A program made the translations under genes and the position numbers. Shown here piece after piece: positions 1,683 to 25,537 of a stretch of DNA of 64,000 nt. The DNA is from Candidatus Aminicenantota bacterium (lineage in GTDB: Bacteria > Acidobacteriota > Aminicenantia > Aminicenantales > UBA4085), in NCBI GenBank assembly GCA_017883285.1, contig JADGNV010000013.1, positions 1-64,000 of the forward strand. Direction: 5' to 3'. Numbering within the stretch: the stretch's first letter is position 1; each line of letters opens with the position of its first letter. The notes under the pieces are model-generated. The model ran no database searches. It was not told where the DNA came from and saw only the letters and a program-made list of their open reading frames with translations.

Positions 1683-2794
1683 GTCTCGTTTACCTTTTGG
1701 GTCCATGAAAGGTTTCGTTTTAAGGCCAGCTCGCCGTATTCGGCGATTTGGTCCAGGGAATAACGGCGCATGTCCTTATGTCCGCTGTAAAAGTCTCTAT
1801 ACCAGTCCGAGGTCATCCGGACCGTCTCTTGGAAAGAAAGGACCGGGTGCCATCCCAGGAGAGAAAGCGCTTTGTCGCAGGAGAGCTTGAGTAGGGTATT
1901 CTCCTTGATGGGAGTCCCGACCTGTTCCTCTCGCCACTTGGCCGGTCCCCACGATAATATGAATGCCTCGATCAAGTTGGCCACGGTCTTGTTGACCTTC
2001 TGATCGGGGCCGAAATTGAAGGGTTCGTTGTGGAACTGACGGGTTTGAAGTAGGTTGGCTCCCAGCCAGAGATATCCGCTCAAGGGCTCAAGAACGTGCT
2101 GCCACGGCCGGGTGGCTCGCGGGTTCCTAACGACCACTTCTTTCCCCTCAGCCCAGGACCGGACGCAGTCCGGGACGATCCGATCCGCGGCCCAATCCCC
2201 TCCGCCGATGACGTTGCCAGCCCTCGTCGTGGCGATGCGGGGGAAATCGCTTTTGTCGAAGAAGGACCGGGCATAAGAATTGCAGACGATCTCCGCGCAT
2301 CCCTTGGAAGCGCCGTAGGGATCGTCGCCGCCGAGCGCGTCGTTTTCCCGGTATCCCCAGACCCATTCGACGTTCTTGTAGCATTTGTCACTGGTGATAA
2401 TGACCGCGGCCTTCACGGTGGAGGTGAGCCTGAGGCATTCGAGAAGATTGACCGTCCCGCCGACATTCGTATCGAACGTCAGTTTCGGTTCCGCGTAAGA
2501 GCGACGGACGATCGGCTGCGCCGCCAGATAAAAGACAACCTCCGGCAGATGATAGTCAAAGACCCGGCGAAGGCCGTCCAGGTCGCGGACATCTCCCTCG
2601 ACGTGGGTCAGATGATGGGTCAGGTCGCAGACCGAAAAATTACACGGTGTCGAGGGGAGATAGAGGGAATAGCCGACGACGTCGGCTCCCAAGGACGTCA
2701 ACCAGAGCGACAACCAGGATCCTTTGAACCCGGTGTGTCCTACGACGAGGACCTTCTTTCCCCGGAAGAGATCGCGAAACGAAGGACTCTTCAT
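1679..2794 (-). CDS. rfbG: CDP-glucose 4,6-dehydratase
   Basis: GHTGFKGSWLSLWL, YGASKGCAE, adjacent to rfbF; start chosen at the ATGA overlap. Confidence 0.9.
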   Translation of the reverse strand: MKSPSFRDLFRGKKVLVVGHTGFKGSWLSLWLTSLGADVVGYSLYLPSTPCNFSVCDLTHHLTHVEGDVRDLDGLRRVFDYHLPEVVFYLAAQPIVRRSYAEPKLTFDTNVGGTVNLLECLRLTSTVKAAVIITSDKCYKNVEWVWGYRENDALGGDDPYGASKGCAEIVCNSYARSFFDKSDFPRIATTRAGNVIGGGDWAADRIVPDCVRSWAEGKEVVVRNPRATRPWQHVLEPLSGYLWLGANLLQTRQFHNEPFNFGPDQKVNKTVANLIEAFILSWGPAKWREEQVGTPIKENTLLKLSCDKALSLLGWHPVLSFQETVRMTSDWYRDFYSGHKDMRRYSLDQIAEYGELALKRNLSWTQKVNET

Positions 2795-3564
2795 GATTTC
2801 CACGTTTTCCAGGGGGGGAACTTGGAATTCCAAAGCCTTTCGAGGAGCTGTTTTTCACGCAGGGTGTCCATGCATTGCCAGAAGCCCTCGTGTTTGAAGG
2901 CCATGAGTTGGCCTTCCCTGGCCAGAGCCTCGAGGGGGGCCTTTTCTAGTTCGACGCTTTCGTCGGGAAGATAGTCGAAGATCTCGGGCTCGAAAACGAA
3001 AAATCCGCCGTTGATCCAACCTTCCTGAGTATGCTGTTTCTCCTTGAATTCCGTGACGATATCCCGGTCGACCAGCATTTCGCCGAACCGAGCCGTCGGC
3101 CGGACCGCCGTCACCGTAGCCGTCTTCCCATGGGCTTTATGAAACGCGACAAGCTTTTTGATGTTGACGTCGCTCACGCCGTCGCCGTAGGTCAGCATGA
3201 ACGTAGACTTTTTCATCTTGTCCCGAAGGCGGAACAGGCGGCCTCCGGTCATGCTGTCCTGGCCCGTGTCGATCAGATCGACGAGCCAGTTCAAGCGGTT
3301 GTTGTTCAGGCAGGAGACTTCACCGTTCTCGAGGTTTATGGTCAGGTCGTTCTGAAGATAATAGCAATTGAGAAAATAATCCTTGATGCTCTCCCCCTTG
3401 TAGCCAAGGGCAATGATAAATTCCCGGAATCCATGAGAGGCATAAATTTTCATAATGTGCCAGAGCATGGGGTTCCCGCCGATCTCGACCATCGGCTTGG
3501 GTTTGATCTGGGTTTCCTCCGAGAGTCGAGATCCCATTCCTCCGGCTAAGATGACTGTTTTCAT
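2791..3564 (-). CDS. rfbF: Glucose-1-phosphate cytidylyltransferase
   Basis: MKTVILAGGMGSRLSEETQIKPKPMVEIGGNPMLWHIMKIY. Confidence 0.95.
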   Translation of the reverse strand: MKTVILAGGMGSRLSEETQIKPKPMVEIGGNPMLWHIMKIYASHGFREFIIALGYKGESIKDYFLNCYYLQNDLTINLENGEVSCLNNNRLNWLVDLIDTGQDSMTGGRLFRLRDKMKKSTFMLTYGDGVSDVNIKKLVAFHKAHGKTATVTAVRPTARFGEMLVDRDIVTEFKEKQHTQEGWINGGFFVFEPEIFDYLPDESVELEKAPLEALAREGQLMAFKHEGFWQCMDTLREKQLLERLWNSKFPPWKTWKS

Positions 3565-4701
3565 TTATGCTCTTTTCATCGTTTGCTCGATGATATCACA
3601 AACGCGGTCGACATCGGAAGATCCCAGGCCGGGGTGGAGAGGAAGCGTGAGCAATTCCTGGTAGATCCTTTCCGTGACCGGCAGGGAGACCTTTCCTCCT
3701 CCGAAATAGCTGAGCAGATGGTTTGGTTTATAGTGGATACCCGTCTGGATCTTCTCGCGCTCCAGCACGGACCGGAGTTCGTCGCGCCGACCCCCTAAGA
3801 CCCGGACCGGTTGGATATGGGGTATGACCGGCCCCAAGTCGGACCAAAACAGGGAGAGTCCAGGATTTTGCCCGAGCCGCTCCCGGTATCTTTTGGCCAG
3901 CTCGATGCGTTTCGGCCCGAATTCGGTCCTGAGACGCATCAGTTGGACGCGGCCGACGGCCGCGAAGATGTTGCTCATGTGGTATCGGTAGCCCTGATGC
4001 TTGACGTCGAATTCCCAGCTCCGTTCCCGGGCGTAGCGTTTTTCGGTATCTTTTTCGACCCCCAGGAGGCGGGAATCTTTGACGCGGGCCAGGGCCGCGG
4101 GGTCCGATGTCACAACCGCCCCTCCCTCGCCGCTGGTGATATTTTTGATTCCGTCGAAACTGAAACAGATGAGGTCCCCGAAGCTGCCGATCTTCCTCCC
4201 TTTGTAGGTGCACCCGAAAGCATGGGCCGCGTCTTCAATGACGCGGAGATCGTGCCGTCGGGCAAAGTCGTGGACCGCGTCCAGGTCCCCCGGATAGCTG
4301 GCGTAATGAACCGGCATGATCGCCCGGGTTCGGGAGGTCAGCCGCTTCCCGGCGTCCTCCAGATCAATGGTGCAGGTCTCCGGGAGGACCTCGCAGGGGA
4401 CCGGGACCGCCGAGGCCGCGGAGATGGCTTGGAAGGACGAGAGAAACGTCAGGGATTGGACGAGGACCTCGTCGCCGGGTTTGAGAAGGGCCTGCGCTGC
4501 CAGATGCAGGGCGGCCGTTCCGCTGTTGACGCAGGCGATATTCGAGGGTTCAATCCCCAGGAACGCGGCGAGCTCCGATTCGAAGGCCTGAACCTCGGTG
4601 CCCATGCCCAGATAGCCGTCTTCGAGGATGACCCGGGAAACGGCCTCGGCTTCCCGCGTCCCGACGATCGATCGGGAGAGTCTCATCAAAGCCATTCCCA
4701 A
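3565..4701 (-). CDS. DegT/DnrJ/EryC1/StrS-family PLP aminotransferase
   Basis: NSGTAALHLAAQAL, EDAAHAFG, FSFDGIKNITSGEGGAV. Confidence 0.9.
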   Translation of the reverse strand: MGMALMRLSRSIVGTREAEAVSRVILEDGYLGMGTEVQAFESELAAFLGIEPSNIACVNSGTAALHLAAQALLKPGDEVLVQSLTFLSSFQAISAASAVPVPCEVLPETCTIDLEDAGKRLTSRTRAIMPVHYASYPGDLDAVHDFARRHDLRVIEDAAHAFGCTYKGRKIGSFGDLICFSFDGIKNITSGEGGAVVTSDPAALARVKDSRLLGVEKDTEKRYARERSWEFDVKHQGYRYHMSNIFAAVGRVQLMRLRTEFGPKRIELAKRYRERLGQNPGLSLFWSDLGPVIPHIQPVRVLGGRRDELRSVLEREKIQTGIHYKPNHLLSYFGGGKVSLPVTERIYQELLTLPLHPGLGSSDVDRVCDIIEQTMKRA

Positions 4702-4707
4702 TCCTCC

Positions 4708-6052
4708 CTAATCGTCTCCCCAGAGCCAGCGTCCCAGCGGGGCCATAAGCGTGGGTTTCTTGTAATATCGGAGATTGTCGTATGTCTGCCGGAACAATTT
4801 TTTCTTAATGATATCCGGGGGAATATCTCCGAACCGAAGTTTCGTGCCCCTGACGATCTCAAGAAATGTCCGACTGATCGCGTCGATATCATGTTGAGAG
4901 CGACAATATTGGTAGGTCCTGTCAGATAAAGCGAGGTAATCGGTTTCAAGAGCATTCATCATTCTTTCGAGGGAGTCGTTGCCGGGTTCATAATCGGCGC
5001 CCGTCAGATAATGCCCCAGATCGTTATGGGGCGAATCGAACAGCCATCTGAACTTATAGCCCGTCATAACGGGGGTATAGGAAAAATCGAGCAGGATCGT
5101 GGGCAGTCCTAGTTTGGCGCCCTCCAATGCGGAGAGGCCCATGGCCGCGACCACGTCCACGCGGTCGCGAAGATAGCTGTCGAGGGCTTCGCCATCGACG
5201 ATGCCGGCGAGTCTTATCTCAAAGAATTCATGGCTGATGCCGAACCGGTTGATGTCCGCGACGCCCGGCCCGCTGCCGATGATATGGAACGTGACGCGTT
5301 TCCGTTTGTTCCGGGCGTACTCGGCGGCCCTTTTCAGCGTGTAGAGGAGGATCGGCATTTTGAAATCCGCCAACCGGCCGATCCAAGCGATGTCCAGCCG
5401 GGCCGCGTTCTTCAATCCCGGCCTCGGCAACGGCGATCCGCCGGCGATCGGAACGGGGACCGAGACGGGATTCCTGATCTCTAGATCGAGGAAATCAGCC
5501 GTCGTTTCCACCGTGTATCTATCGTAAAAGATCAGCGCGTCCTTCTTGACCATCGTCTCCAAGAACGTTTGAAGACTCTTTTTTTTTTGCCGGGAGGAGC
5601 CGGCGCATGACGAATTTATAAGCCTTCTTGTATTTGAACTGAAGATGCCGAACCCCTGGCAAGGGAAGCAGGACGTTGACAAGATTGTAAGGGAACAGAT
5701 GCCAGAAGATGACGGGGGTCGCCGGATCGATGTTCAGCTCCGGCCGCATCGCGTAGGGGAGGATCGATTGCATGATGAGGAGGGTGTCGGGTCCGATCGG
5801 AAAAGGTTTCCCGGTTTCGAAAACGCGGCGTTCGATGGCCGGGTTGTCCTTCGTTCTTTGGGCCATATAGCCGTCCGCGAAATCGATGATCGTGACTTTG
5901 ATCCCTTGGGCCGAAAGATGATTTGCCAGTGTCGAAAAAAGAACGGGAACGCCGCTGACCTCCTTATATGGGAACAAAAAGGTGAGATGGGGACTCGATA
6001 GTCGCTCGATGTTAGTTCCCTTATCCAGGTTCTCTGGATGGATCGAATTCAT
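4708..6052 (-). CDS. Glycosyltransferase (GT4-like), split by a frameshift at an A10 tract (5579-5588)
   Basis: ORFs 5519..6052 and 4708..5682 are the N- and C-halves of one protein; the join falls at a 10-A homopolymer on the minus strand. Confidence 0.75.
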
Positions 6053-7347
6053 GGGAGAGACTCAGACACGAAATGGAGATCCGGCACCGTGGACATGAAG
6101 CGGATGCCTTTAGCGATTTTGGTCCGTTCTTTGCCGAGGATCTCCTGGACATGGGAGGGGGCCGTGATAAGGATCACGTCGGCCTTCTTCGCGCGCGGAT
6201 CGCGGCTTTTGATGACTTGAGACCCGACGCCCGGGACGAATCGTCCGGCATAGCCGGGCGTATCGTCGATGACAAAGGGCAGAATCCGGGAATCCAGAGC
6301 GAGCATATTTAAAAGGGCTTGCCCTTTAGCGCCGGCCCCATAGCCGACGGCCCTAATCCGGCGGCGGGCGAGTGTCTGAAAGAACGTTCTGGCAGTATCT
6401 TTCTGGCGCCCGACTTTATCGAAGAATTCCCGATATCCAGAAACCCGGGCGAGGTCCAGGACGCTTTCTTGGGATAGGATGGTCTTGATATTCTGGGAAT
6501 CCCGGCCCCGACTGGACGTTTTTCCAACGATCAGGATCATCGAGCCGGCATCCATCTCGGAAAAGCGGATGTCCAGGAGTTCAAGCTTCGCCCGGTGGAA
6601 AAGCCTGACGATCGACGTCACCGTAAAAAACAGGACGTGTTGGAAGGTCATGGACTGGAACTGATTGTTGATCATCTGGAAGTGCAGATAAGGGACTTCG
6701 ATGACCGCCCGGCCGTTTTTATCCAGAGCGATCTCCACGCCCATTAGAAAATCGAGAGGATCGAAGGTATGCTCCAGCGTGTGCCGGGACATGACCAGCT
6801 TCACCGTGCCGTTGTCCTCGACGAACCGGCGCGCCGTGGTCGCGCTGAAAAAATCTTGAATAATCTTATGCCCGCCCCGGGCCGAGACGTTCGCCGACGG
6901 ATCGAAGCCGATGGCGCGCTGGCCCCGGGCCTGGATGAGATCGAGAACGGAGCCGTCGTTAGACCCGATTTCGATGACGGTGTCGCCCCTCTTGAGATGG
7001 GATACCTGGGCAGCCAGATCTAAGAACGCATCCATATAGGACCGCACTTTTTGAGACATGGAATAGGTGGCCTGATAGAACCGGTAGACCTTCTCGACCA
7101 TAAAGCTTTCGCAGGACAGATCAGCCTGTTGGACCAGCCCGCAGATCCCGCAAATGGCGACGGCGTTCTCGAACTTCGGGGCACGGCGGGCAAGAGCGGT
7201 GGTGGTTTCCAAATAGCCTGCCACGGGGAGCTTCCCGAAAGAGTGAAGAAGATGGAGCGAACCCCCTCCCCGACAGCCGCGGCACGGTAGGGGGATCACG
7301 GAGGCCGTTCTCGTCCCGGATGGGGAGGACAGTCCACGTTTATTCAT
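6049..7347 (-). CDS. SAM-dependent C-methyltransferase (N-terminal Cys zinc motif, NovU/TylC3-like)
   Basis: CRGCRGGG...CGICGLVQ zinc-type cysteines; VIEIGSNDGSVL SAM motif; C-terminal VGYGAGAKGQALLN domain. Confidence 0.85.
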   Translation of the reverse strand: MNKRGLSSPSGTRTASVIPLPCRGCRGGGSLHLLHSFGKLPVAGYLETTTALARRAPKFENAVAICGICGLVQQADLSCESFMVEKVYRFYQATYSMSQKVRSYMDAFLDLAAQVSHLKRGDTVIEIGSNDGSVLDLIQARGQRAIGFDPSANVSARGGHKIIQDFFSATTARRFVEDNGTVKLVMSRHTLEHTFDPLDFLMGVEIALDKNGRAVIEVPYLHFQMINNQFQSMTFQHVLFFTVTSIVRLFHRAKLELLDIRFSEMDAGSMILIVGKTSSRGRDSQNIKTILSQESVLDLARVSGYREFFDKVGRQKDTARTFFQTLARRRIRAVGYGAGAKGQALLNMLALDSRILPFVIDDTPGYAGRFVPGVGSQVIKSRDPRAKKADVILITAPSHVQEILGKERTKIAKGIRFMSTVPDLHFVSESLP

Positions 7348-8341
7348 AACAAAATTCCTTAAGCTCATGATGGATCTTGTCAATGGCCTCCCGATCATCA
7401 TGGCGTTTCCAGAGACCTATGTTTTTTTTCGATTCATCCGGTTTAAAGTGCTCTTTTTCCCGGACGTGGACCTCCGGGCTCTCCTCGAGGAAGGTGAGGA
7501 TCTTGGCCACGGTGGCCTTGTAATCGAGAACAAGATCTTCGAACCGCAAGCTCAGCACGCGGGAGGAGTTTCGGTCGCAGTGGCCGGCGACACGCCGGCT
7601 GAACTTGAACCGGCGGATGAACTCTTCCACCGGAAGGCGGTTCGGCCGGTACCAGAGCCCCGCTACGTACGAGTCCCGCGGGTCCCGGTCCACGATGACG
7701 GCTTTCGCGGAATCGAAATACCTCAAGGCCCGGCCTGGATTGAACGGCTCGAAGGCGTTATTCATGACGATCGTCCCCATGTCGGGGCCGACGTTGGAGG
7801 CCAAGACGGCTTGTAGATAACGCCGAGTCAGGCCCAAAAAATCCTCGGGCGCGGCCAGGCAGACTCGAAAATCGTTTGCCCGTTTCACCCGGAAGGCGAG
7901 CCGCAGGAATTTTCTGGCGAACAGCTCGATCCCGCTGATCTCGGCCAGGGGATAGGGCCAGTCCGCGATCCAGGAGACGTCGACCAGCCGGTCGATGTAC
8001 TCCCGGGACAATTCCAGAAAACGACCGCCGTAATATGCGTCGTAGTTCCATCCCACGGCCGAGAACCAGCTTTTTGGCTTGAGCCATTCGTTCTTCCAGC
8101 CGAGCCGGACGACCAGGCGTTTGAATCTCCGGATGGCCGCGTCGGAGCGGATGGGCGACCAGTCCTCCACCAGAGCCGTCTCCAGGTCGCGGATGCCGCC
8201 CTGAATCCGGATCAGATTGAACTCGACGGCGAAATGGGGGACATGATAGCCTTTAAATTCGCGCACTAGATCGTTCACGGCATGTTTGCCCGTGAACGCG
8301 TACCCCGAAAGGTCGAGGAATTTATAGGTCTTGCCTTCCAT
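7340..8341 (-). CDS. Sulfotransferase-family protein
   Basis: N-terminal LSGYAFTGKHAVNDL (PAPS-loop-like) and VIVDRDPRDSYVAG, LRFEDLVLDY. Confidence 0.65.
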   Translation of the reverse strand: MEGKTYKFLDLSGYAFTGKHAVNDLVREFKGYHVPHFAVEFNLIRIQGGIRDLETALVEDWSPIRSDAAIRRFKRLVVRLGWKNEWLKPKSWFSAVGWNYDAYYGGRFLELSREYIDRLVDVSWIADWPYPLAEISGIELFARKFLRLAFRVKRANDFRVCLAAPEDFLGLTRRYLQAVLASNVGPDMGTIVMNNAFEPFNPGRALRYFDSAKAVIVDRDPRDSYVAGLWYRPNRLPVEEFIRRFKFSRRVAGHCDRNSSRVLSLRFEDLVLDYKATVAKILTFLEESPEVHVREKEHFKPDESKKNIGLWKRHDDREAIDKIHHELKEFCYE

Positions 8342-8353
8342 AATCTCGCGTCC

Positions 8354-9466
8354 TTAGGGCTCCGGCCGGTAGCCATTGCAGGCTTCGGAGACGATCTTCC
8401 ATTCCTTCTTCTCGAGGGTGATGTCCATGGGCAGGCTTGTCACGGTCCGATGGATCTCTTCGGTAAGCGGGAGCTTTTCGGCGGACCATTCAGCGTATGC
8501 CTTCTGGAGGTGCGGGGGGATGGGATAATGAATGGCGGTCTCGACTCCGCTATGCTTGAGGTGGGCCTGGAACGACTCCCGGTCATCCGTCCGGACCACG
8601 AACTGGTGCCAAACGTGGGCTTCTTCCGGCATAGCCGCGTCCGGAAGGACGATCAGAGGATTGCAGATTTGATCGAGGTAAAAACGGGCCATGGCCCGCC
8701 TCCGATCGTTCTCCCGGTCGAGGTATTTGAGCTTGACGAGAAGGACCGCCGCCTGCATCTCGTCGAGCCGGCTGTTAACCCCTTTATAGAGGTTCTCATA
8801 CTTGAGGCGGGACCCGTAGTTGCGCAAAGCCGCGATCGTTTCGGCCAGTTTTGCGTCATTGGTCGTGACGGCCCCAGCGTCGCCGAGCGCCCCCAGGTTC
8901 TTCGTGGGATAGAAGCTGAAGCCGCTCGCATCGCCGAGGTTCCCGGCCCGGCGGCCGCCGAGGACGGCGCCGTGGGACTGGGCGGAATCCTCGATGATCT
9001 TCAAGCCGTGTTTTTCGGCGACCTCCCCCATTTTTCGGGAATAGCCGAGCCGCCCGTAGAGATGGACGACCAGGATGGCCCGGGTCCTCTTGGTGATCTT
9101 TTCCTCGAGACGGTCGGGGTCGATATTGAAGGTCCCCGGGCCGGGTTCAACGGGGACGGGTTTGAGACGATTCGCCGAGACCGCTAAAATAGAGGCGATG
9201 TAGGTATTGGCCGGGACCAGAACCTCGTCGCCGTCAGTTAGAATCCCCAACTCCCGGTAGGCGCGGAAGATGAGGATCAGCGCGTCAAGTCCGTTTGCGA
9301 CGCCGATGGCGTGCCTGACGCCGCAGTATCTCGCAAACTCGCGCTCGAATTCGAGGCCGCAGTTCCCGAGAATGTACCAGCCGGAATCGACGACCCGGGT
9401 GATCGCCTCGATCAGCTCTTGACGATGGAGGTCGTTGATCTTCTTTAGGTTGAGGAAGGTCACCAT
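8354..9466 (-). CDS. DegT-family aminotransferase, FdtB-like (dTDP-3-amino-3,6-dideoxyhexose)
   Basis: [44 protein letters not shown]; precedes a FdtA/WxcM domain protein. Confidence 0.85.
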
Positions 9467-10413
9467 CAGGGCGTTATGCTTTCTTTTTTTAAACGGAGGA
9501 ACTCGTCGTAATCCCGGATGTAGTCCTCGGCCATGTAGACCTCGGACGCCAGCACAAGGAGAACAGCATCCGGCGAATATTTGTACTGGACGCTCCAGAC
9601 GAGAGGCGGGACATGGAGGCCGATGTTGTTCCTGTCGAGGAGGATCTCCTCCCGCTGGGACCCATCGTCGACGACGACGGAACACGATCCTTGGATGCAG
9701 ATCATGAACTGGTGAAGCTCACGGTGGGCATGCTCGCCCCGAACGGTCCGCGTCGGCACGTCGAAGACGAAAAAAAATCTTTTTGGATGAAACGGTAGGA
9801 ACTGGCCGATCTCGGCGAAAGACAACGTGCCGCGCATATCCTTGATGAGCGGAAGATTCAGGACCTGGACGCCCCTCACCTTCGCTGGCCTACGGCTAGG
9901 GCTCTCGCTTTCGGTCGGCGAGGCTCGGAGCGTTTTCCGCAGATCAGAGGCGTCCACATAGCCCCGGATCTCGGCCGGATTCCCGGCGACCACTGCGAAG
10001 GCCGGGACATCTCGCGTTACGACCGCCCCAGCACCGATCATGGAGGCGTCCCCGATCGTCAGGCCCGGAAGGATGGTGGCGTTGGCCCCGATGGAGGCGC
10101 CTTTCCGGACCAGCGTCTTAGCGAACCTGGTCGGATATTGTTTACTGCGGGGGAAGGCATCGTTAGTGAAGGTCGCGTTCGGGCCGATGAACACATCGTC
10201 TTCGATCTCAATTCCGTCCCAGACCTGGACCCCGCATTTGATCGTGACCCGATCGCCGATCTTGATGTCATTTTCGATGAAAACGTGATCGCAGATATTG
10301 CAGTCTTTTCCAATAACGGCCCCGGGCAAGATATGGACAAAAGCCCAGACCCGCGTGCCTTCTCCGATATGTTCAGATTCGACGATGGCTTGAGGATGTT
10401 TGAAATATATCAT
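9466..10413 (-). CDS. Bifunctional left-handed beta-helix acetyltransferase + dTDP-4-keto-6-deoxyhexose 3,4-ketoisomerase (WxcM/FdtD-like)
   Basis: N-terminal hexapeptide repeats; C-terminal [37 protein letters not shown]. Confidence 0.88.
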
Positions 10414-10420
10414 GTAAACC

Positions 10421-11497
10421 TCACCCAGGCCGCGAAAAATCCAAATGAAAATAATCTTGGACAATTTGCTTGAAAGCGCTGTCCAAGGGAATCTTTTTTT
10501 TTATGAGTTGACCGGGCCGCTCGGCCAGGATGCAGACAAGATCTTGGTCCACATTTTTCTTGTCTCTTTGGAGAGCTTCAAAATACGTTTCCGGGATATG
10601 TCGATCCCAATGAAACTCAGGAAAATTCCAGGACAGCAGGACATGAAGGTCCTCGAAGGTCTGCCGGGACATCAATCCGGCAACGAGGGAGACATAGTTG
10701 GCGAGATCCATTCCGATCGTGACAGCCTGCCCGTGACTGATTTCATAATGGGTTAAGGTTTCTAGGGCATGGCCAAAGGTGTGGCCGTAGTTGAACTTAT
10801 TGCGCTCGTTCTTGTCGAACTCGTCGACCTCGATCACGGCCTTTTTGATCGAGAGACTTTCCCAGATGAATTCCTTCAGGCCGGATCGGTTCCTCATAAT
10901 ATCCTGATAGCGGTCGATCATTTTTCTCAAGGATGCACTCCCCGAGTAGATAAAATAATGCATCATTTCCCCGATGCCGGACTTGATGTCTTTTTCTTCC
11001 AGAGAATCCAGAAAGGAAATATCGCTGTAAATCTGCGAAGGAGGATAGAAATTCCCGACCAAGTTCTTTTTATCTCCCAGATTGATCGACGTTTTACCGC
11101 CGATACAGCTGTCAGCCTGGGCGAGGAGCGTCGTCGGAAAAAAGACCCAATCGATGCCGCGGTAGAGGATCGAGGCCGTAAAGGCCGTGACGTCCTGAAG
11201 GATCCCGCCGCCCACGGCCACGAGTTTTTGGGTCTTGCGAAATCCGCGAGAAACGAGCCTTTCGATGACGTCCTTGCATTTATCGATGGTTTTATAATGT
11301 TCGAGAGCTTCGAACAAAAGAGAGGAGTCAGGTTGGAGCCAGGGAGTAAATCTGGTTTTGAAAAGGTCGGAGACCTTTGAATCGAGGATGAGGAAAGCTC
11401 CTGAATCGAGCTCCCGCTTCAAAAACACCGTGAAATCGTCGACGAAGTCCAGCGAATAAGGGCGAATCTTGGATTGGATCGCCAGGCGATCAGACAT
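10421..11497 (-). CDS. 3-dehydroquinate synthase-superfamily sugar phosphate cyclase-like protein
   Basis: VGGGILQDVTAFTASILYRGI, GGKTSINLGDKKNLVGNFYPP, NYGHTFGHALE, HGQAVTIGM. Confidence 0.85.
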   Translation of the reverse strand: MSDRLAIQSKIRPYSLDFVDDFTVFLKRELDSGAFLILDSKVSDLFKTRFTPWLQPDSSLLFEALEHYKTIDKCKDVIERLVSRGFRKTQKLVAVGGGILQDVTAFTASILYRGIDWVFFPTTLLAQADSCIGGKTSINLGDKKNLVGNFYPPSQIYSDISFLDSLEEKDIKSGIGEMMHYFIYSGSASLRKMIDRYQDIMRNRSGLKEFIWESLSIKKAVIEVDEFDKNERNKFNYGHTFGHALETLTHYEISHGQAVTIGMDLANYVSLVAGLMSRQTFEDLHVLLSWNFPEFHWDRHIPETYFEALQRDKKNVDQDLVCILAERPGQLIKKKIPLDSAFKQIVQDYFHLDFSRPG

Positions 11498-12242
11498 TAA
11501 CGAATCCTCCATCGACGACGATGTTTTGTCCGGCGATATACGTATTCAGAGAACTGCATAGAAACAAGACGACTTTGGATATTTCTTCAGGGAGAGCAAA
11601 CCTGCGAATCGGCACTTGGCGGACCAAATCATTCATTTCCACTTCGCTGAGGATGCGCCGCGTCAAATCGGTCAGGACGAAACCCGGAGAAACCGCATTG
11701 ACCAGAATGTTAAAGCGGGCCAGGTCGATCGCGGCCGAAACCGTCAAGCCGCGGACGCCGAACTTCGTGATCGAATAGAGGGACCTTTTTTCCTTGCTGA
11801 TCACACCGAAAATGGAGGCGATATTCACGATCCGTCCAAATCCGTTCTTTTTCATGATCGGACTGATCGCGCGAATGATCCTGAAGGGGCCTTCTAAATT
11901 GACCGCTAAAAGATCTTCCCAATCCTTGACCAAGGTTTGGTCGATGGGATTGATTCGGTTAATGCCGGCATTATTGACACAAATATCGACTCTGCTCCAG
12001 GCGGAGAGGCTTTTCAGAAATAGCTCTAAGCTTTTTCGGTTCGTGAAATCGACAGGATAGTATTTTTTTAAAGCGCCTTTGCGTATCTGCTCGACACGAC
12101 CCACTGATTTGGGTCGGCGTTTTTCGAGCCCGGTCAAGATGAGATGAGCGCCGAGCCGGGCGAAATCCTCCGCGATCCGTAAACCGATACCGCTCGTGGC
12201 TCCCGTTACGAGGACGATTTTTCCTTTGAAGTCGATCTTCAT
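11490..12242 (-). CDS. Short-chain dehydrogenase/reductase
   Basis: VTGATSGIGLRIAEDFA, NNAGI, YSITKFGVRGL. Confidence 0.92.
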   Translation of the reverse strand: MKIDFKGKIVLVTGATSGIGLRIAEDFARLGAHLILTGLEKRRPKSVGRVEQIRKGALKKYYPVDFTNRKSLELFLKSLSAWSRVDICVNNAGINRINPIDQTLVKDWEDLLAVNLEGPFRIIRAISPIMKKNGFGRIVNIASIFGVISKEKRSLYSITKFGVRGLTVSAAIDLARFNILVNAVSPGFVLTDLTRRILSEVEMNDLVRQVPIRRFALPEEISKVVLFLCSSLNTYIAGQNIVVDGGFVNV

Positions 12243-12259
12243 GTTTCTCTCGCGCGATC

Positions 12260-13195
12260 CTATCCAAGCCCTTTCAGAAGATTTTCGACGGCTTCAGTTT
12301 CCATTTGTAGGCGGCATTCCCGGGTATAGGAGCCGACGTGGGGTGTGAGCAGGACGTTGGAGAAAGCACTCAATGGACCACTGTAAGGCTCACTTTTGAA
12401 CGTATCCAGCCAAGCGCCCGCGATTCGGCCGCTTTCTAAATTCGTTTTCAACGCATCCTCCGACATGACTCCGCCGCGGGCCGCGTTAAGAATGAAAATT
12501 CCGCGTTTCATGAGGGCGAATTCTTTGTCTCCCAAAACGCATGTCTCGCCGCCGCTGTGGAGGGAAATGATGTCAGCTTGGGGTAGGGCTTGTTCGAGGG
12601 ACATTCGCCGATAGGGTCGAACGTCTTCGTCCTGGAGAAACGGATCCACGATGAGAAGTGTGACGTGAAAAGGTTTCAGAAGTTCGGCGACGCGGCGGCC
12701 GATCCGGCCGAACCCGATGATTATGACGGTTTTACCTTCAACTTGAAACCCGATCTTCTTATCCCAGAGACCGTTGTGCAAGGCATTGTCCATCGCGGAA
12801 ACCATCCTCACGAGACAGATCATGGCCCCCACCGTCAGTTCTGCGACCGCTTCCGTCGGACCGGCCGGCGTCGAAAAAACTTGGATCCCCAGTTCTTTGG
12901 CCGCTCCGACATCGACATTCGAGATCCCCGAGCCTACCCGGGACACGACGCGGAGTTTCGATTTGAGAAGGACATCGCGGTCGATCGTTTCCAACCCGGC
13001 GATGAGGCCGATGGTATCGTCGGTCAGGAGCTGCAGAAGCTCCTGTTTGGTCAGCTTCCTCTTGTAAGGATTGTCGACGACCTCATAGCCAGCGGAACGC
13101 AGTTTGAGAAGCGGGGTCGTGTCCGTGGCCGCGAAGGTGGACGGACCGATGAGGATTTTTTTCGATGGTCCCGATTTCAAGGTTGTCTCCTTCAA
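12260..13195 (-). CDS. D-isomer-specific 2-hydroxyacid dehydrogenase (phosphoglycerate dehydrogenase-like)
   Basis: VIIIGFGRIGRRVAELL, LNAARGGVMSEDAL, LTPHVGSYT. Confidence 0.92.
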   Translation of the reverse strand: MKETTLKSGPSKKILIGPSTFAATDTTPLLKLRSAGYEVVDNPYKRKLTKQELLQLLTDDTIGLIAGLETIDRDVLLKSKLRVVSRVGSGISNVDVGAAKELGIQVFSTPAGPTEAVAELTVGAMICLVRMVSAMDNALHNGLWDKKIGFQVEGKTVIIIGFGRIGRRVAELLKPFHVTLLIVDPFLQDEDVRPYRRMSLEQALPQADIISLHSGGETCVLGDKEFALMKRGIFILNAARGGVMSEDALKTNLESGRIAGAWLDTFKSEPYSGPLSAFSNVLLTPHVGSYTRECRLQMETEAVENLLKGLG

Positions 13196-13201
13196 AGCAA
13201 C

Positions 13202-13558
13202 TCACGAAGTCACGTTCTTGATGTGCCAGAGGACACCTTCATGATCAACGAAAAAATAGACCTTCCCGGTCGGGGAATCGAGCTCTTTTTCGATGGGAAA
13301 TCCAAGGTGCGTGATGAACTCTTTGGCCTGAGGCCGGCGGAGGCAGGGATTACAGAATCCGCTCGCCAGCGGTTTGTCCGTAGTCCTTTTTTTCTTGACT
13401 TCGATATGAAGACCTTGCGGCGACGTGAACATAGACGTACCGCTCGAGGAAATGACTTCGAAGGCCCCTCCCTCGAATATTGTCCTTAAAAAACGGCCGT
13501 ATTCCTGAATGTCATCAACATGGACTTCGATGTGATCGAATAAAACGCTCACATTCAA
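13202..13558 (-). CDS. VOC (glyoxalase/bleomycin-resistance) family protein
   Basis: FDHIEVHVDDIQEYGRFLRTIF...VYFFVDHEGVLWHI. Confidence 0.7.
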   Translation of the reverse strand: MNVSVLFDHIEVHVDDIQEYGRFLRTIFEGGAFEVISSSGTSMFTSPQGLHIEVKKKRTTDKPLASGFCNPCLRRPQAKEFITHLGFPIEKELDSPTGKVYFFVDHEGVLWHIKNVTS

Positions 13559-14184
13559 ACTCCTTCTCGGCTATGCCGCAATTTGTTTTGAAACCAATGG
13601 GAGAGGATGTGATTAATGATCAAATGGAAGTCTTCAACGGGTCCGTATTCGCCCGGGAGCGTATCGACGTGGACGACGACATCACAGAGGGCTTTCGCCT
13701 CTCCGCCGCCAAAGCCCACGAAACCGATGATGCGGCCTCCTTGGGATCTGACCCATCGCGCGGCCTTGAGAATATTCGGCGAGTTGCCGCTCGCCGAGAT
13801 CAAAAGGAGCCGGTCCCCGGGCCGGTAATGCACTCGGAGTTGGTGGAGGAAGACATCCTCGTACCCGACGTCGTTAGCGATGGCGGTCAGGGCCGAGACG
13901 TTATCGGTGAGGGGGAGGATCCGAAAGGGGGCATCCGTTCCCGTCTTCTTGAGGATGTCGAATCCGAGGTCGTTCCCCATGGATGTGGCGGTGGAGGCGG
14001 ACCCTCCGTTCCCGATAACGAATAGGGCGCTCCCCCGGGCGCGCGCGTCTTCAAATTCCTCCCCCAAAGCATTCATGCACGACGCGTCGAATTGGGCGAA
14101 AAGCCGCGCCAGGTAATTCAGGTATCCCTCGGTAAAGCCCTTGAGGTCATTTATGTTCCGATAGATTTCATCGATGTTGTTCAT
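13555..14184 (-). CDS. SIS-domain phosphosugar isomerase (GmhA-like)
   Basis: GNGGSASTATSMGNDL, ISASGNSPNILKA, EDFHLIINHIL. Confidence 0.88.
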   Translation of the reverse strand: MNNIDEIYRNINDLKGFTEGYLNYLARLFAQFDASCMNALGEEFEDARARGSALFVIGNGGSASTATSMGNDLGFDILKKTGTDAPFRILPLTDNVSALTAIANDVGYEDVFLHQLRVHYRPGDRLLLISASGNSPNILKAARWVRSQGGRIIGFVGFGGGEAKALCDVVVHVDTLPGEYGPVEDFHLIINHILSHWFQNKLRHSREGV

Positions 14185-15242
14185 TCCAGCCTCACTAAGG
14201 GCCTCCCGGGGTCTTCTATTTGAATTTTGGCCTTCCACGCCGGATCCGCGTTGTAGATCTTGAAGACCAGCTCCATGATCCTCAATGCATCCTGGCCGTT
14301 GCCGTTTTTAACGGGTTTGTCGTTGGTGATGAGCTCGGCGAATTCGTCGACCTCGCGCTTCCATGAGAAATCCTCAAGGTAAGAGGTGATGATTTCGCCG
14401 AACGAGCCGAGATTCGAGCCTTCCTCCCGTTGAACGATCTTCAGCTTTTCCTCTCCGTAACTCTTCGAGCCGGATAAAATTCCCGTCAGTTCCAGGAGGG
14501 CTTCCTGGAGGCTAATTTCGAGTCTGAACTTGTGCTGCCACTGCGTCGCGGTCGAATGGAGCATCGCTACGCAACCCGCAGAGGTCCTCATGATGGCATA
14601 CGCATTGTCTTCGACATTGTGGTTCCAGTAATCGTTGGAGACGAAGCTTTTAATTTCGACAAACTCACCTGCGAAATATCGCATCATGTCCAACATGTGA
14701 ATGCCCTGATCGAGAAGGATGCCCCCGCCTGCCAGTTTTCGTTCGGATCTCCATCCCCCGGAGAAAGGGATGATGCTGCTTTTCCCATACACTCCACGCA
14801 GGTTGATGATCTTTCCGAATCGGCCGGAATCGATGATCCTTTTCGCTTCCATGACGGAATCGTGATAACGGTGATTGAAGCCGTATTTCAATTTCAGCCC
14901 CGGATACCGTCTTTCGACTTCGATCACTTTGCGGGTGTCCTGGACGGTGCAAGCCGGCGGCTTTTCGCAGAAGACATGGAGGCCATTCTCGAGGCCGGCC
15001 ATCGTCACTTCGGCGGCGAGATAATTGGGCAGAGAAACGAAGAGGATATCTAGGTTTTCCCCGAATAATTTTTCGTAAGTTTTAAAAAACTTGAGCCCGT
15101 CGGAGAAAACGCCTTCTTGGGCGAATTGAATATCGCTGACGGCGACCGTCTGCAACGACGGATTCTGGTCGATCCAGATCCGGCGGCGCTTGCCCACGAC
15201 TCCGTATCCGGCTATGCCGACTCTGAGCGATTCTTTCTTCAT
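14181..15242 (-). CDS. Gfo/Idh/MocA-family oxidoreductase
   Basis: VGIAGYGVVGKRRR, CEKPPACTVQDTRKVIEV, LDQGIHMLDMMRYF. Confidence 0.9.
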   Translation of the reverse strand: MKKESLRVGIAGYGVVGKRRRIWIDQNPSLQTVAVSDIQFAQEGVFSDGLKFFKTYEKLFGENLDILFVSLPNYLAAEVTMAGLENGLHVFCEKPPACTVQDTRKVIEVERRYPGLKLKYGFNHRYHDSVMEAKRIIDSGRFGKIINLRGVYGKSSIIPFSGGWRSERKLAGGGILLDQGIHMLDMMRYFAGEFVEIKSFVSNDYWNHNVEDNAYAIMRTSAGCVAMLHSTATQWQHKFRLEISLQEALLELTGILSGSKSYGEEKLKIVQREEGSNLGSFGEIITSYLEDFSWKREVDEFAELITNDKPVKNGNGQDALRIMELVFKIYNADPAWKAKIQIEDPGRPLVRLE

Positions 15243-15248
15243 CTGCCG

Positions 15249-16226
15249 TTACTTCCTGGCGATAGCTCTCATATGGGAGCTGAAACGGTGGTTTTTGATC
15301 CACGTTTGCAGTTCTCTCTTGGCTTGGTCCGTGCCATGGTCGCTGACCGTCTTGAAAAACCGGCCAGGGTCCGTTCCTTCATTCTGGTAGATCCCTTCCA
15401 CGATGTCCCAATCGAGCTCCCCGGGTGTCGTAACGTTTAATGTCTCGAAACCGGCACGTTCGAGGAGTCCCGAGATGGCCCGAGGATTGAAAAAATTGAG
15501 ATGATTGGGAGGAAAAACGCTTTTGGATCGCTCCCAGAGGAGTTGAATGTCGAAACCGAGGCCATTGAGCGTCGTCAGAAGAAAATAGCCACCCGGCTTG
15601 AGGAGAGAGAAAATTTTCTTCAGGAATTCCTGGGGGGCATAGATATGTTCGAACAGTTCGAAGGCGGTTAAAAGGTCGAACTGCGGTGACGGGTCCATTT
15701 CCTCCAGCATGCGTTCGATAACGGAAACCCCCTTGGACCGACAGATCGAAGCCATATCAGCCGACGGTTCGATCGCGACTAAGTCTGCGCCCATCCAAAT
15801 CTTTTTCAATTCCTGTAGAAAAAGGCCGAATCCGGCTCCGACATCACCGATCCGTCCCTGGCTAAGTCCCGGGAATTCAGCGCCGATGAATTCCGCGCGT
15901 GGCTTGAAAATCTTTTCTCTGCGGATTTCTGCCACGGGGAGGAAGAATTCCTCGACCCAATATTTCGTCGACCGGGAATTCTCGTAGATCCGTTTGAGCT
16001 CTTGATACGGGGGTCGGGGGTTAACGAAGAGCGTCTCGCAATCCCGGCACTGGACATAATGAAAGCCGAATTTCTCAAATTGAAAAGCGTGGCTCGTCGA
16101 TGCACAGCCGGGGCAGGCTATGGAGACGAATGAGGACTTATCCCGGAGGAGCGTTTCGGAATCCTGCCGGACCAATTCGAGATACTCGTTTAAGGCTTCC
16201 CGGTTGCGGATTTCTTGTTCTTTCAT
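15249..16226 (-). CDS. Class I SAM-dependent methyltransferase with N-terminal zinc motif
   Basis: CPGCAST...QCRDCETLFVNPRPP, IGDVGAGFGLFLQEL. Confidence 0.88.
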   Translation of the reverse strand: MKEQEIRNREALNEYLELVRQDSETLLRDKSSFVSIACPGCASTSHAFQFEKFGFHYVQCRDCETLFVNPRPPYQELKRIYENSRSTKYWVEEFFLPVAEIRREKIFKPRAEFIGAEFPGLSQGRIGDVGAGFGLFLQELKKIWMGADLVAIEPSADMASICRSKGVSVIERMLEEMDPSPQFDLLTAFELFEHIYAPQEFLKKIFSLLKPGGYFLLTTLNGLGFDIQLLWERSKSVFPPNHLNFFNPRAISGLLERAGFETLNVTTPGELDWDIVEGIYQNEGTDPGRFFKTVSDHGTDQAKRELQTWIKNHRFSSHMRAIARK

Positions 16227-16229
16227 GGT

Positions 16230-17030
16230 TTATCGGAGATATGTTTTGACAAGAGGGTCGAGGGCGAGCATGTGCCGCACCCGAATAAGGTCCTCCGGAG
16301 TGTCGATGGAACTGGTGCGATGACTTGTCCGTCCGGCCTTAATGTCGATCCCGTGTTCGAGGAACCTATTCATATCCACGGATTCGATGATCTCCAGGGG
16401 GGTAGGCGTCAGCCCGATGTATTTTAAAAGACTTTCCCTGCGGAAAAGGATGAGGCCGAGTTGTTTCCACATCGGGACGATCCCTTTGAATTTTTTTGTG
16501 GAAGGAATAGGCTCTCTCGAAAAATAGAGAATGTTGTCGTGCAGACCGAGAACGACCTTGACGGTGTTCGGATCTAGGAATTCCTCCCAGCTTTCGATTT
16601 TAGCGATGAGATTTACAACCTCGACCGCCTCTCCGACGGCGATGGGCTTTACAAGCGCGTCGAGCATTCCCGGAACGAGCATCGGCTCATCTCCCTGGAT
16701 CATGGCCGCGTAATCAATCCGGATTCCTGTGATTTGTTCGATCTTCAAAAGAGCCTCACCCGTCCTGTCCGAAGCCCTTTGGTGGGATGAGGCAGTCATG
16801 ACAGCCCGACCGCCGACGCTTTCAATATAGTCGGAGATCTCGGCGTCGCAGGTTGCGACCCAGACATCGCTGAACGAAGCACACATTTTGCTTCGGAAAT
16901 AGACATGGCCGATCATGGGCATGCCGAGGATATCAGCCATCGGTTTGTTCGGGAACCTGGTCGAGTCCATCCGGGCGGGAATGACGCCAACAATGTTCAT
17001 AGGATCGTTCCGGACAGGGAGAATATTCAA
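16230..17030 (-). CDS. KdsB-like 3-deoxy-ulosonate (CMP) cytidylyltransferase
   Basis: VGVIPARMDSTRFPNKPMADILGMPMIGHVY; TTG start at 17030 or ATG at 17000. Confidence 0.88.
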   Translation of the reverse strand: MNILPVRNDPMNIVGVIPARMDSTRFPNKPMADILGMPMIGHVYFRSKMCASFSDVWVATCDAEISDYIESVGGRAVMTASSHQRASDRTGEALLKIEQITGIRIDYAAMIQGDEPMLVPGMLDALVKPIAVGEAVEVVNLIAKIESWEEFLDPNTVKVVLGLHDNILYFSREPIPSTKKFKGIVPMWKQLGLILFRRESLLKYIGLTPTPLEIIESVDMNRFLEHGIDIKAGRTSHRTSSIDTPEDLIRVRHMLALDPLVKTYLR

Positions 17031-17506
17031 ATCGTCCTTATGGTCTTGGCTGGAACGCCGGCCGCGAACGACCTTGAGGAGACGTCTTTGGTCACCACCG
17101 AGCCGGCGCCAATGACGGAATAATCACCGATTGTGATAGGGCCGATGATAATAGCCCCGCTCCCGATATAGCAGCCCCTTCCAATCACAATATCCCGACC
17201 GTTTTCGGGGACATAATGCAAGGGCCGATTCTCTCTCTCCGCTTCTCCAATATGGTAGTGTTTGCCGGTCAAAACCATCACGTCTTCGCCGAAGACGGTT
17301 TCTTTCCCGATGACGATCCGTCCTGACCGTGTGTTGAAGTAACAAGATTTTGGAATGTTCTTTTTCGCGTTTTCCAGATCTTCGATTAGCAAAGGATTCT
17401 GGCCCTGCGCGAGGCAGTGTTTGTTTATTCGCAAATCATACAGCTCCGCCAGATGCCATGCGATCGGCTTGAAGGTCAATAATAGTCTTTGGATAAATTC
17501 GTGCAA
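17027..17506 (-). CDS. Hexapeptide-repeat acyltransferase
   Basis: IVIGRGCYIGSGAIIIGPITIGDYSVIGAGSVVTKDV...AAGVPAKTIR. Confidence 0.88.
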   Translation of the reverse strand: MHEFIQRLLLTFKPIAWHLAELYDLRINKHCLAQGQNPLLIEDLENAKKNIPKSCYFNTRSGRIVIGKETVFGEDVMVLTGKHYHIGEAERENRPLHYVPENGRDIVIGRGCYIGSGAIIIGPITIGDYSVIGAGSVVTKDVSSRSFAAGVPAKTIRTI

Positions 17507-17513
17507 CAGAGAC

Positions 17514-18284
17514 TCAACTTCTTTTAATTTTCTTCATTCGTTCTCGACAAGCGGTCCCCAAGAAAAGAAAGTCTGTGCCGAAAGCGAGGAAACGATAGCC
17601 GGCCTCGATCTTTTCTTGAAGCAAGCGGACAACGGGCTGAACGATATGGTACCCCAAGGGCTTCCCGGCTCCTTTGGAAATTCGCTCATAGGATTGGAGC
17701 TGCTCTTGAACATCCTCGTCATCAAAGCGGCCTGGTTTTCCCAACGAGCCCGAAAGATCGTAAGGACCGATGATCGTGGCATCGATTCCGTCGACATCGA
17801 GGATCTCTTGGAGATGGTGGATCGCTCCAACATGTTCGATCTGCGCGATGACCACGGACTCTCGGTTTATCCAGCGAGCGTATTCTTCGAATTTGAAACC
17901 GTATCCTTGAGCCCGGGCCAAGCCCACCCCGCGATTACCAAAAGGGGGATAACGCACGGCCCGGACAGCAGCTTCCGCTTGTTCTTTCGTGTTCACCATG
18001 GGGACGATCACCCCTTGGGCGCCCGCGTCCATTACGCGTTTGATCAAGTTTGGGTCGTTGGAAGTCAGCCGAACCAGAGGGATCACTTTCTTTAGATCGA
18101 TGATGCGGATGAGATCTTCCGCTTCTCGGATCGTGATGGCACTGTGCTCGAGGTCGACGACCAGCCAATCGAAGCCGGCATCGGCCATGATCTCCGGAAT
18201 GGCCGGATGTGCAAGATTGATCCAGGAGCCGATCGTCAGCTCATTTTTCTTTAATCGGTTTTTCAAGCTTTCCATGGGCATCAA
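17514..18284 (-). CDS. HpcH/HpaI-family class II pyruvate aldolase
   Basis: GSWINLAHPAIPEIMADAGFDWLVVDLEHSAI, GVIVPMVNTKEQAEAAVRAVRYPPFGNRGVG. Confidence 0.92.
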   Translation of the reverse strand: MMPMESLKNRLKKNELTIGSWINLAHPAIPEIMADAGFDWLVVDLEHSAITIREAEDLIRIIDLKKVIPLVRLTSNDPNLIKRVMDAGAQGVIVPMVNTKEQAEAAVRAVRYPPFGNRGVGLARAQGYGFKFEEYARWINRESVVIAQIEHVGAIHHLQEILDVDGIDATIIGPYDLSGSLGKPGRFDDEDVQEQLQSYERISKGAGKPLGYHIVQPVVRLLQEKIEAGYRFLAFGTDFLFLGTACRERMKKIKRS

Positions 18285-19765
18285 CCCTTCAACGCCGAAG
18301 GAGCGAGGCGTTTCACGATTCCCGCGATTTTTCCTTTTTCTCGACCGTTTAGAACGGAGACATACAGGAAGAGGAGAAAAAGGGCGACGAAGGCGCTTTT
18401 CATGGCGAGCGCTATAAGGAAGGAATGAAAGAACAGGAGGGAGTTGACGATGATGATGAACAGTCCGGCGGCAAGGACCTTGACTAACCGGATGCTTTCT
18501 ATTTCAATCTTGAACAATCGATTGGAAATGAAATATACAAGAGCGATGGTAACGGCAAACGTAAGCAGAATATTATAGGCGGCAGCCATGTATCCGAATC
18601 TTGGTATCAACAGATAATTGAGAGACGCATTGAACACGACACTCACCCAAAAAATGATCGCATGATAGTAGATTTTTCGGGAGAAGTAAATACCATTGTC
18701 GATAATGTTGATTACGCCGTAGATCAAATGGGCCAGCATGACGATGGGGATGATCTTGTAAGCGACAATATAGTCTTTTTGTCCCGAGATCAACTTCAGC
18801 AGTTCATGGGAAAATAGAGAGATAGCCACGGTGATGAACGTTCCGATAACGAAATAATAGGTCAGGATAAGCCGATAGAGTTCGCGTGCGTTGGAATCGT
18901 GACGATATTCCATCCTCATCGGCGCATAAATCTGGCTGAAAGGAAGAATGAAGAGGATGTGGATCATCGTTCCGAGTTTATATCCCAGAGTATAGATCCC
19001 GACGTCACCAAGCGTACCGTATTTATTGATGAACAATTTGTCGATCGAAGTCATCAAGTAATATCCAAGTCCGATGAAAATCGTCGGAAGGCCGAATTGG
19101 AGTTGCACCTTAAGTTCATGTTTGGAGAGGTGCCAACCAAACGAAGTTCTGGAGAAAAGAAACAGACAAAAAAATAAAATGATTTGATTGATAAGATCGC
19201 CCAGGATTGGTGCCATGACGCCCATTTTCAACTTCGTTAAAAAGGTCGTGATCAGCGAAACGGATAAGAAGAGCGACAAGAGATTCAGGGAGATGACGTG
19301 TTTGGATTTTCGCTGGAAACGGAGAATGATATAAAAGAGGGCGTTGATGAAGGCTATGGCCGAGGAGGTCAGAATCAAGAAAACATGAAGGGCGTATTTT
19401 TCGTTTTGGAAGAGCCATGTCGATAATTGAAAACGGAGAACAAAGGCCAAAATAATCTGCGCTACCGCTCCGGAAAGGCAAATGACCAGCGACGTCGTTG
19501 CGGTTTTTTTCCGTTCCGGACCTTCTGGATAGTCGAAATAGGATCGAGCGAGAGCGGACGAAGCGCCCAGAAAGAGGACGGACCCGGCGATAGTGGCGCA
19601 GAGCTGGAGAAGAGCGAGTGTTCCGTATATATTCGGCGAGTAATAACGCGTGTAAAGAGGGATCAGGATGAATCCAAGGGCAGTCTGCAATACCGATCCC
19701 ATTCCATATATCAGAGTATGGCTGACCGCTTCTCTGATTTTTGCCGACAGGCTTTTTTCGGTCAT
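18281..19765 (-). CDS. Oligosaccharide flippase, Wzx/MATE-type
   Basis: Multi-TM protein, GMGSVLQTALGFILIPLYTRYYSPNIYGTLAL. Confidence 0.9.
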   Translation of the reverse strand: MTEKSLSAKIREAVSHTLIYGMGSVLQTALGFILIPLYTRYYSPNIYGTLALLQLCATIAGSVLFLGASSALARSYFDYPEGPERKKTATTSLVICLSGAVAQIILAFVLRFQLSTWLFQNEKYALHVFLILTSSAIAFINALFYIILRFQRKSKHVISLNLLSLFLSVSLITTFLTKLKMGVMAPILGDLINQIILFFCLFLFSRTSFGWHLSKHELKVQLQFGLPTIFIGLGYYLMTSIDKLFINKYGTLGDVGIYTLGYKLGTMIHILFILPFSQIYAPMRMEYRHDSNARELYRLILTYYFVIGTFITVAISLFSHELLKLISGQKDYIVAYKIIPIVMLAHLIYGVINIIDNGIYFSRKIYYHAIIFWVSVVFNASLNYLLIPRFGYMAAAYNILLTFAVTIALVYFISNRLFKIEIESIRLVKVLAAGLFIIIVNSLLFFHSFLIALAMKSAFVALFLLFLYVSVLNGREKGKIAGIVKRLAPSALKG

Positions 19766-25422: not shown

Positions 25423-25442
25423 GTTTCCATCCTTTCCAGTTT

Positions 25443-25533
25443 GGGGTCAGGTCTTAACATTTAACAAATTTGACCCGGCCTGACCCTTTGGTGTCAGGCC
25501 TCGCCATAAACGTCAAGAGTTAAGACCTGACCC
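25443..25533. repeat. Inverted-repeat element, family C (GGGTCAGGTCTTAAC...GTTAAGACCTGACCC)
   Basis: Terminal arms are inverted; internal sequence matches the copy at 39033-39124 in opposite orientation. Confidence 0.85.
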
Positions 25534-25537
25534 TCGT

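Follow-up and report, generated by a model that had tools for sequence, protein, structure and literature searches.

Within a window of 64,000 bp (positions 1 to 64,000 of contig JADGNV010000013.1, assembly GCA_017883285.1) from the draft genome of a Candidatus Aminicenantota bacterium (98% completeness, 6.2% contamination), we analysed a block of ten tightly packed genes located between positions 10421 and 18284 on the minus strand (Table 1; all coordinates are window positions). A first-pass annotation had assigned these genes to ten families and proposed that their products make either a non-Kdo ulosonic acid (Kdo, 3-deoxy-D-manno-oct-2-ulosonic acid) by pyruvate aldol chemistry or a C7-cyclitol-derived residue, which is then activated with CMP. 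All ten open reading frames (ORFs) were located at these positions, and searches against Pfam and NCBIfam confirmed nine of the ten family assignments. The remaining small protein was recognized by its predicted fold, since its AlphaFold model (moderate predicted local distance difference test (pLDDT) of 69) displayed the paired beta-alpha-beta-beta-beta fold of the VOC superfamily, to which it belongs according to this model, and matched VOC, FosX, and glyoxalase structures in Foldseek (probability 1.00, best E-value 1.6e-7). The description of the genes as mostly overlapping was slightly generous: of the nine internal junctions between the longest ORFs, four showed overlaps (-23, -4, -58, and -4 bp), while five had gaps of 3–17 bp.

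Table 1. Genes of the ten-gene block (10421–18284) and of its flanks in the window, with the basis of each assignment; numbers preceded by L denote loci in other genomes.
Feature	Position	Strand	Basis
AroB-like sugar phosphate phospholyase (cyclizing), TIGR04425	10421..11512	-	NCBIfam score, active-site alignment, clade
SDR oxidoreductase	11490..12242	-	Pfam adh_short_C2; next to AroB throughout type I and in most of type II
D-2-hydroxyacid dehydrogenase, phosphoglycerate-dehydrogenase-like	12260..13195	-	Family searches; in 6/6 type I relatives and 2/2 type III loci
Small VOC-fold protein	13202..13558	-	No Pfam match; 64% identity to L036 homologue; fold match
SIS-domain sugar-phosphate isomerase-like protein, GmhA-related, without GmhA catalytic residues	13555..14238	-	Pfam and alignment
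Gfo/Idh/MocA dehydrogenase	14181..15242	-	53–68% identity in six type I relatives; 46–47% in type III
Class I S-adenosylmethionine (SAM) methyltransferase, Cys-rich N-terminus	15249..16226	-	Methyltransf_23; kept in 5/6 type I relatives
Putative KdsB-like CMP-ulosonate synthetase, motifs of C-terminal half altered	16230..17030	-	CTP_transf_3 (KdsB subfamily), clade, motifs
Left-handed beta-helix (LbH) hexapeptide acyltransferase	17027..17506	-	Pfam Hexapep; 59–60% identity in L037 and L039
HpcH/HpaI-type pyruvate aldolase	17514..18284	-	HpcH_HpaI; aligned metal and catalytic residues present
Wzx-type flippase, 4 bp overlap with aldolase gene	18281..19765	-	Polysacc_synt_3; homologue at L036, L037, and L039
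Acyltransferase fused to FdtA-like ketoisomerase (3-amino-3,6-dideoxyhexose route)	9466..10464	-	Family search, locus comparison
DegT aminotransferase 2	8354..9685	-	Family search, locus comparison
Sulfotransferase-like protein	7340..8341	-	Weak Pfam match (26.6 bits vs 27); L036 homologue 34 bits; adjoins cassette in 5/6 relatives
GT-B-like glycosyltransferase, two overlapping frames (5519–6052, 4708–5682)	4708..6052	-	One ORF in relatives
DegT aminotransferase 1	3565..4701	-	Adjoins cassette in 5/6 relatives
Glucose-1-phosphate cytidylyltransferase (RfbF)	2791..3564	-	TIGR02623, 356 bits (cut-off 300); in 6/6 type I relatives
CDP-glucose 4,6-dehydratase (RfbG)	1679..2833	-	TIGR02622, 460 bits (cut-off 278)
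Small protein; L036 member of its family is a weak RmlC-like epimerase match	1239..1706	-	PF00908 below cut-off

Genomes were scanned with an AroB-like protein alignment and two peptide patterns, which revealed 35 loci; since the sample derives from this one scan, the locus frequencies given here are lower bounds. Six relatives, grouped with the window as type I, were identified in Chlorobiota (L036), Gemmatimonadota (L037), Bacteroidota (L038, a metagenome-assembled genome (MAG)), Verrucomicrobiota (L039), Legionella (L040, also a MAG), and Bacteriovorax (L042). Within about 10 kb they carried nine, nine, six, eight, eight, and eight genes of the set, respectively, with identities of 31–68%, the order in L036 being that of the window and the Gfo/Idh/MocA dehydrogenase being the member of highest conservation. 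The AroB/SDR pair was located no more than about 7 kb from KdsB in all six, and SIS and VOC genes were confined to type I among the loci compared. Co-occurrence elsewhere was a check named by the first-pass annotation, and the recurrence of eight or nine of the ten genes in five further phyla, and of six in a sixth (L038), is beyond chance. By this sequence comparison, the block is a conserved cassette present as a whole or in large part in seven bacterial phyla, that of the window included.

Parts of the cassette were also found on their own. Most type II loci keep the AroB/SDR pair alone, many of them adding RfbF, RfbG, and an RfbH-like protein, and none harbors KdsB; an acetolactate-synthase-like thiamine pyrophosphate (TPP) enzyme, i.e., a TPP carboligase, was present in sixteen loci of the scan. 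Several phyla contribute type II loci with these additions (L044–L062, L069, and L003/L050), in which an HpcH-like, NeuB-like, or HMGL-like protein, differing by locus, lies near AroB. A search of 396 genomes from the phylum of the window with the Gfo/Idh protein led to two type III loci (L121 and L122), which possess the Gfo/Idh, aldolase, KdsB, 2-hydroxyacid dehydrogenase, and methyltransferase genes without AroB and without a close SDR. In L122, a gene for an inositol-monophosphatase-family protein lies between those of aldolase and KdsB, at the place where one would look for a KdsC-like phosphatase; its vicinity also contains genes for a NeuB-family synthase, a B12-binding radical SAM protein, and a Rieske/PhyH-like protein. 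Since types II and III hold parts of the set and only these two extra loci came from 396 genomes, the cassette is modular, and it is rare in this phylum. In L040, the AroB-like gene is separated from that of the 2-hydroxyacid dehydrogenase by a 6-phosphogluconolactonase gene (positions 7967–8722 of that locus; TIGR01198, 183 bits, cut-off 124). Members of one hydrolase family (PF04199 by the L042 member) are encoded near AroB in both L038 and L042. Comparison of the AroB-like protein with plasmids and phages via tblastn resulted in distant matches alone (<60% identity), four plasmid neighbourhoods of such matches turning out to contain ordinary aroB, and a scan of viral contigs with the Gfo/Idh alignment gave no match.

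The KdsB-like protein, with 137.9 bits, fell below the kdsB equivalog cut-off of 155.2. All seven type I genomes, including that of the window, encode a canonical KdsB elsewhere in addition to the cassette copy, while the same-genus genome G214 and two type II genomes revealed the canonical enzyme only. A branch supported by 99/94 separates the cassette copies from canonical KdsB. Their nucleotide- and metal-binding motifs (P-loop, QGDEP, and VDTP) are intact, while in the C-terminal half of most copies the canonical H-x-G-x-Y-x-Y is replaced by Q-x-G-x-I-x-F, E-x-LEQLR by ESVDMxR, and SGT[DE]R by R[AC][ST]DR; the type III copies show like changes, and the copy of L038 is divergent and departs from this pattern. 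In a published structure, Kdo is bound in the C-terminal domain, the altered motif residues not being named there (PMC3149649).

In the window genome, canonical kdsB, kdsA, and kdsD are clustered on contig C71, to which all genome matches for KdsA/NeuB-type synthases are confined, none occurring in the window. Thus, the first-pass annotation was right that the window lacks such a phosphoenolpyruvate (PEP)-dependent synthase, and the canonical kdsA/kdsC set whose presence beside the cassette kdsB would have spoken against its proposal is not found there. Compared with the CMP-Kdo pathway (KdsD-KdsA-KdsC-KdsB), the cassette shares the KdsB fold with its three intact motifs and a nearby sugar-phosphate isomerase-like protein, but it encodes a pyruvate aldolase instead of the PEP-dependent KdsA, has no adjoining KdsA or KdsC, shows changed C-terminal KdsB motifs, and coexists with a separate canonical set.

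Alignment of this aldolase with YfaU-type enzymes showed that the base histidine, the pyruvate-binding arginine, and the two acidic metal ligands (Glu and Asp) are kept. By these residues it is an HpcH/HpaI class II pyruvate aldolase with predicted aldol activity. While fold, metal, and catalytic residues agree with HpaI, RhmA (YfaU), and GarL, it differs from them in being encoded in a polysaccharide operon instead of a catabolic one and in scoring below the family equivalog cut-offs (193 bits vs 369 for HpaI).

The AroB-like protein reached 419.8 bits against TIGR04425 (cut-off 400), a family without an assigned reaction, and 260 bits against the aroB equivalog model (cut-off 305). Thirteen of the 14 active-site positions of 3-dehydroquinate synthase (DHQS, AroB) are kept, counting E260, which is replaced by D, while K197 is an H in the window and likewise in L036, L037, and L038. 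The AroB-like proteins of types I and II, which retain the 14 positions except for this change in the four loci, group in a clade of their own (100/99), distinct from canonical AroB and also from the canonical copies that most other carriers possess in the same genome. A search of the protein against the PDB ranked dehydroquinate synthases first, 2-deoxy-scyllo-inosose (DOI) synthase lower, and ValA last. Since K250 and R264, which we take to be carboxylate binders, are kept, a carboxylated substrate is favoured, and the retained DHQS active site makes a carboxylated 2-ulosonate phosphate more likely, as judged from these residues, than sedoheptulose-7-phosphate. In the window genome it is the sole AroB homologue: canonical aroB, aroA, aroC, and both families of 3-deoxy-D-arabino-heptulosonate 7-phosphate (DAHP) synthase were not detected at 98% completeness, the only PF00793 match being KdsA. 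Of 59 genomes of the order, 42, among them G214, gave no chorismate synthase, and the enzyme is missing in most of the family. As it is missing in the genus and most of the family, the loss appears to be a lineage trait instead of a gap in the assembly, and the shikimate pathway for aromatic amino acids appears to be absent from the host.

The first-pass annotation had further argued that the GmhA-like and the AroB-like enzymes both act on sedoheptulose-7-phosphate, which was not supported. Apart from the DHQS set kept in the AroB-like enzyme, the SIS protein has T for Asp61, S for His64, and E for Gln175 of GmhA (the aligned PDB entries include mutants at these sites) and thus lacks what we assume to be the catalytic Asp and the zinc ligands, respectively.

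The conserved unit is larger than the ten genes and additionally comprises those for CDP-glucose synthase, dehydratase, DegT aminotransferase, glycosyltransferase, and the sulfotransferase-like protein, which the first-pass annotation had not included. The split frames of the glycosyltransferase reflect a frameshift either in the organism or in the assembly, and its AlphaFold model (pLDDT 52) was too poor to use. At 24367–26977, the window encodes a member of the GDP-mannose-4,6-dehydratase/epimerase family and a nucleotidyltransferase, possibly dTDP-sugar enzymes serving the FdtA/DegT route at 8354–10464. The G+C content was 52% for the ten-gene block and 52–55% for the polysaccharide region (1–19765), compared with 64–65% for the remaining contig, which suggests that the block was gained horizontally. 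Since tetranucleotide use in the flank from 30 to 64 kb matched contig C71 (r 0.95–0.96), the contig is probably not misbinned, the contamination estimate of 6.2% still applying to the assembly.

Based on gene families and residues, from which all chemistry proposed here is deduced, we tentatively regard the block as a surface-polysaccharide cassette that spread horizontally and whose most likely product is an as yet undescribed CMP-activated ulosonic acid, giving this somewhat less than an even chance. The HpcH-type aldolase would couple pyruvate or hydroxypyruvate with an aldehyde or ketone to a 2-ulosonic acid, onto which the KdsB paralogue would transfer CMP; methyltransferase and acyltransferase would decorate the ulosonic acid, and the Wzx flippase would export the completed repeat unit. 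The AroB-like enzyme, together with the SDR, Gfo/Idh, 2-hydroxyacid dehydrogenase, and SIS proteins, would supply another building unit: a phosphorylated sugar would be converted to an aldonate (compare the 6-phosphogluconolactonase of L040) and a 2-keto-aldonate phosphate, from which AroB-type oxidation, phosphate elimination, and aldol closure would give a dehydroquinate-like carbocyclic acid for reduction or oxidation by SDR and Gfo/Idh. The aldolase and KdsB steps are better supported than the formation of this unit. For the aldolase/KdsB half, a non-Kdo CMP-ulosonate made by pyruvate aldol chemistry is the best reading because of the co-occurrence, the canonical kdsA and kdsB elsewhere, the aldolase residues, and the distinct KdsB clade, so that this part of the first-pass proposal was supported, while its argument from a shared sedoheptulose-7-phosphate was not. 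Several observations weigh against the scheme as a whole. AroB and a close SDR are absent from type III loci, as is the aldolase/KdsB core from type II loci; since each half thus occurs without the other, the two may make different residues. Besides, L038 has no aldolase along with its divergent KdsB, the lactonase occurs in L040 alone, the role of the SIS isomerase is uncertain because of its changed active site, and that the altered KdsB motifs line the sugar pocket and that K250 and R264 bind the carboxylate are our assumptions.

The separate occurrence of the halves leads to the strongest rival, which we consider possible but unlikely, namely two adjacent pathways, in which the core of aldolase, KdsB, Gfo/Idh, 2-hydroxyacid dehydrogenase, and methyltransferase makes a CMP-ulosonate, while AroB and SDR make a separate residue or side chain joined to a CDP-6-deoxyhexose. 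Type III loci, with the core but no AroB/SDR, type II loci, with AroB/SDR next to RfbF, RfbG, the RfbH-like protein, and the TPP carboligase but no KdsB, and the RfbF gene flanking all six type I relatives agree with such a division, whereas the short distance between AroB/SDR and KdsB in all six and the restriction of SIS and VOC to type I argue against it. Type II loci may make branched CDP-sugars akin in logic to caryophyllose: RfbF and RfbG are shared with the routes to yersiniose and caryophyllose, and type II relatives add the TPP enzyme, but none was seen in the window block, and the relation of these sugars to type II loci is our suggestion. In the papers on bradyrhizose and caryophyllose that we opened, dehydroquinate synthase or aldolase genes are not mentioned for these sugars, so a tie to them stays an idea. 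Conversely, a single product of both halves is rather doubtful: a carbocyclic acid or ketone made by the AroB-like enzyme would accept pyruvate via the aldolase, and the resulting ring-fused or carbocycle-bearing 2-ulosonic acid would be activated by the KdsB paralogue. If true, the skeleton of this nucleotide sugar would contain a carbocycle, and dehydroquinate-synthase chemistry would serve a polysaccharide residue in a host without the shikimate pathway.

Other alternatives concern single enzymes. That the AroB-like enzyme is a sedoheptulose-7-phosphate cyclase leading to a valiolone-like cyclitol, as the first-pass annotation had offered, seems improbable to us. Sugar phosphate cyclases of this superfamily do act on sedoheptulose-7-phosphate (PMC4426668), and a Gfo/Idh member related to inositol dehydrogenases is present; however, such cyclases are set apart by a characteristic 14-residue fingerprint (PMC4426668), while the DHQS positions, which were those compared here instead of the fingerprint of 2-epi-5-epi-valiolone synthase (EEVS), are kept except for one K-to-H change. 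The PDB ranking also argues against it, and, although EEVS, desmethyl-4-deoxygadusol synthase (DDGS), and DOI synthase share the superfamily, the other genes of their pathways were not recognized. About as slim is the chance that hydroxypyruvate from the 2-hydroxyacid dehydrogenase is the aldol donor, in which case the product would be a 3-hydroxy (Ko-like) instead of a 3-deoxy 2-ulosonic acid; the dehydrogenase resembles phosphoglycerate/glycerate dehydrogenases and accompanies the aldolase in types I and III, and hydroxyketoacid aldolases of the HpcH family are known (6r62). Least of all do we expect the AroB-like protein to be the plain dehydroquinate synthase of the host, with the cassette KdsB as a redundant second CMP-Kdo synthetase: although the genome encodes no other AroB homologue and both enzymes keep their catalytic motifs, searches there gave no aroA, aroC, or DAHP synthase of either family, a canonical AroB is also present in most other carriers, and a canonical KdsB is encoded elsewhere while the motifs of the paralogue differ.

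In the open-access papers searched, which miss most subscription papers, we found no characterized pathway matching the cassette and nothing relevant on TIGR04425, this gene combination, or a cyclitol together with an ulosonic acid. Altogether, we place the cassette with the CMP-ulosonate pathways, with an uncharacterized enzyme family attached, and probably provides an acidic surface sugar via pyruvate aldol chemistry and a repurposed ring-forming enzyme of the aromatic pathway. TIGR04425, so far a named family without function, and an AroB homologue outside aromatic biosynthesis thereby gain gene contexts. Activated ulosonic acids such as Kdo and sialic, legionaminic, and pseudaminic acids shape the encounters of bacteria with hosts, phages, and immune systems, and these well-known examples are made by PEP-dependent synthases. 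A pyruvate aldolase and a repurposed KdsB in a conserved cassette point to an undescribed class, and the cassette may represent a new route to cell-surface sugars.

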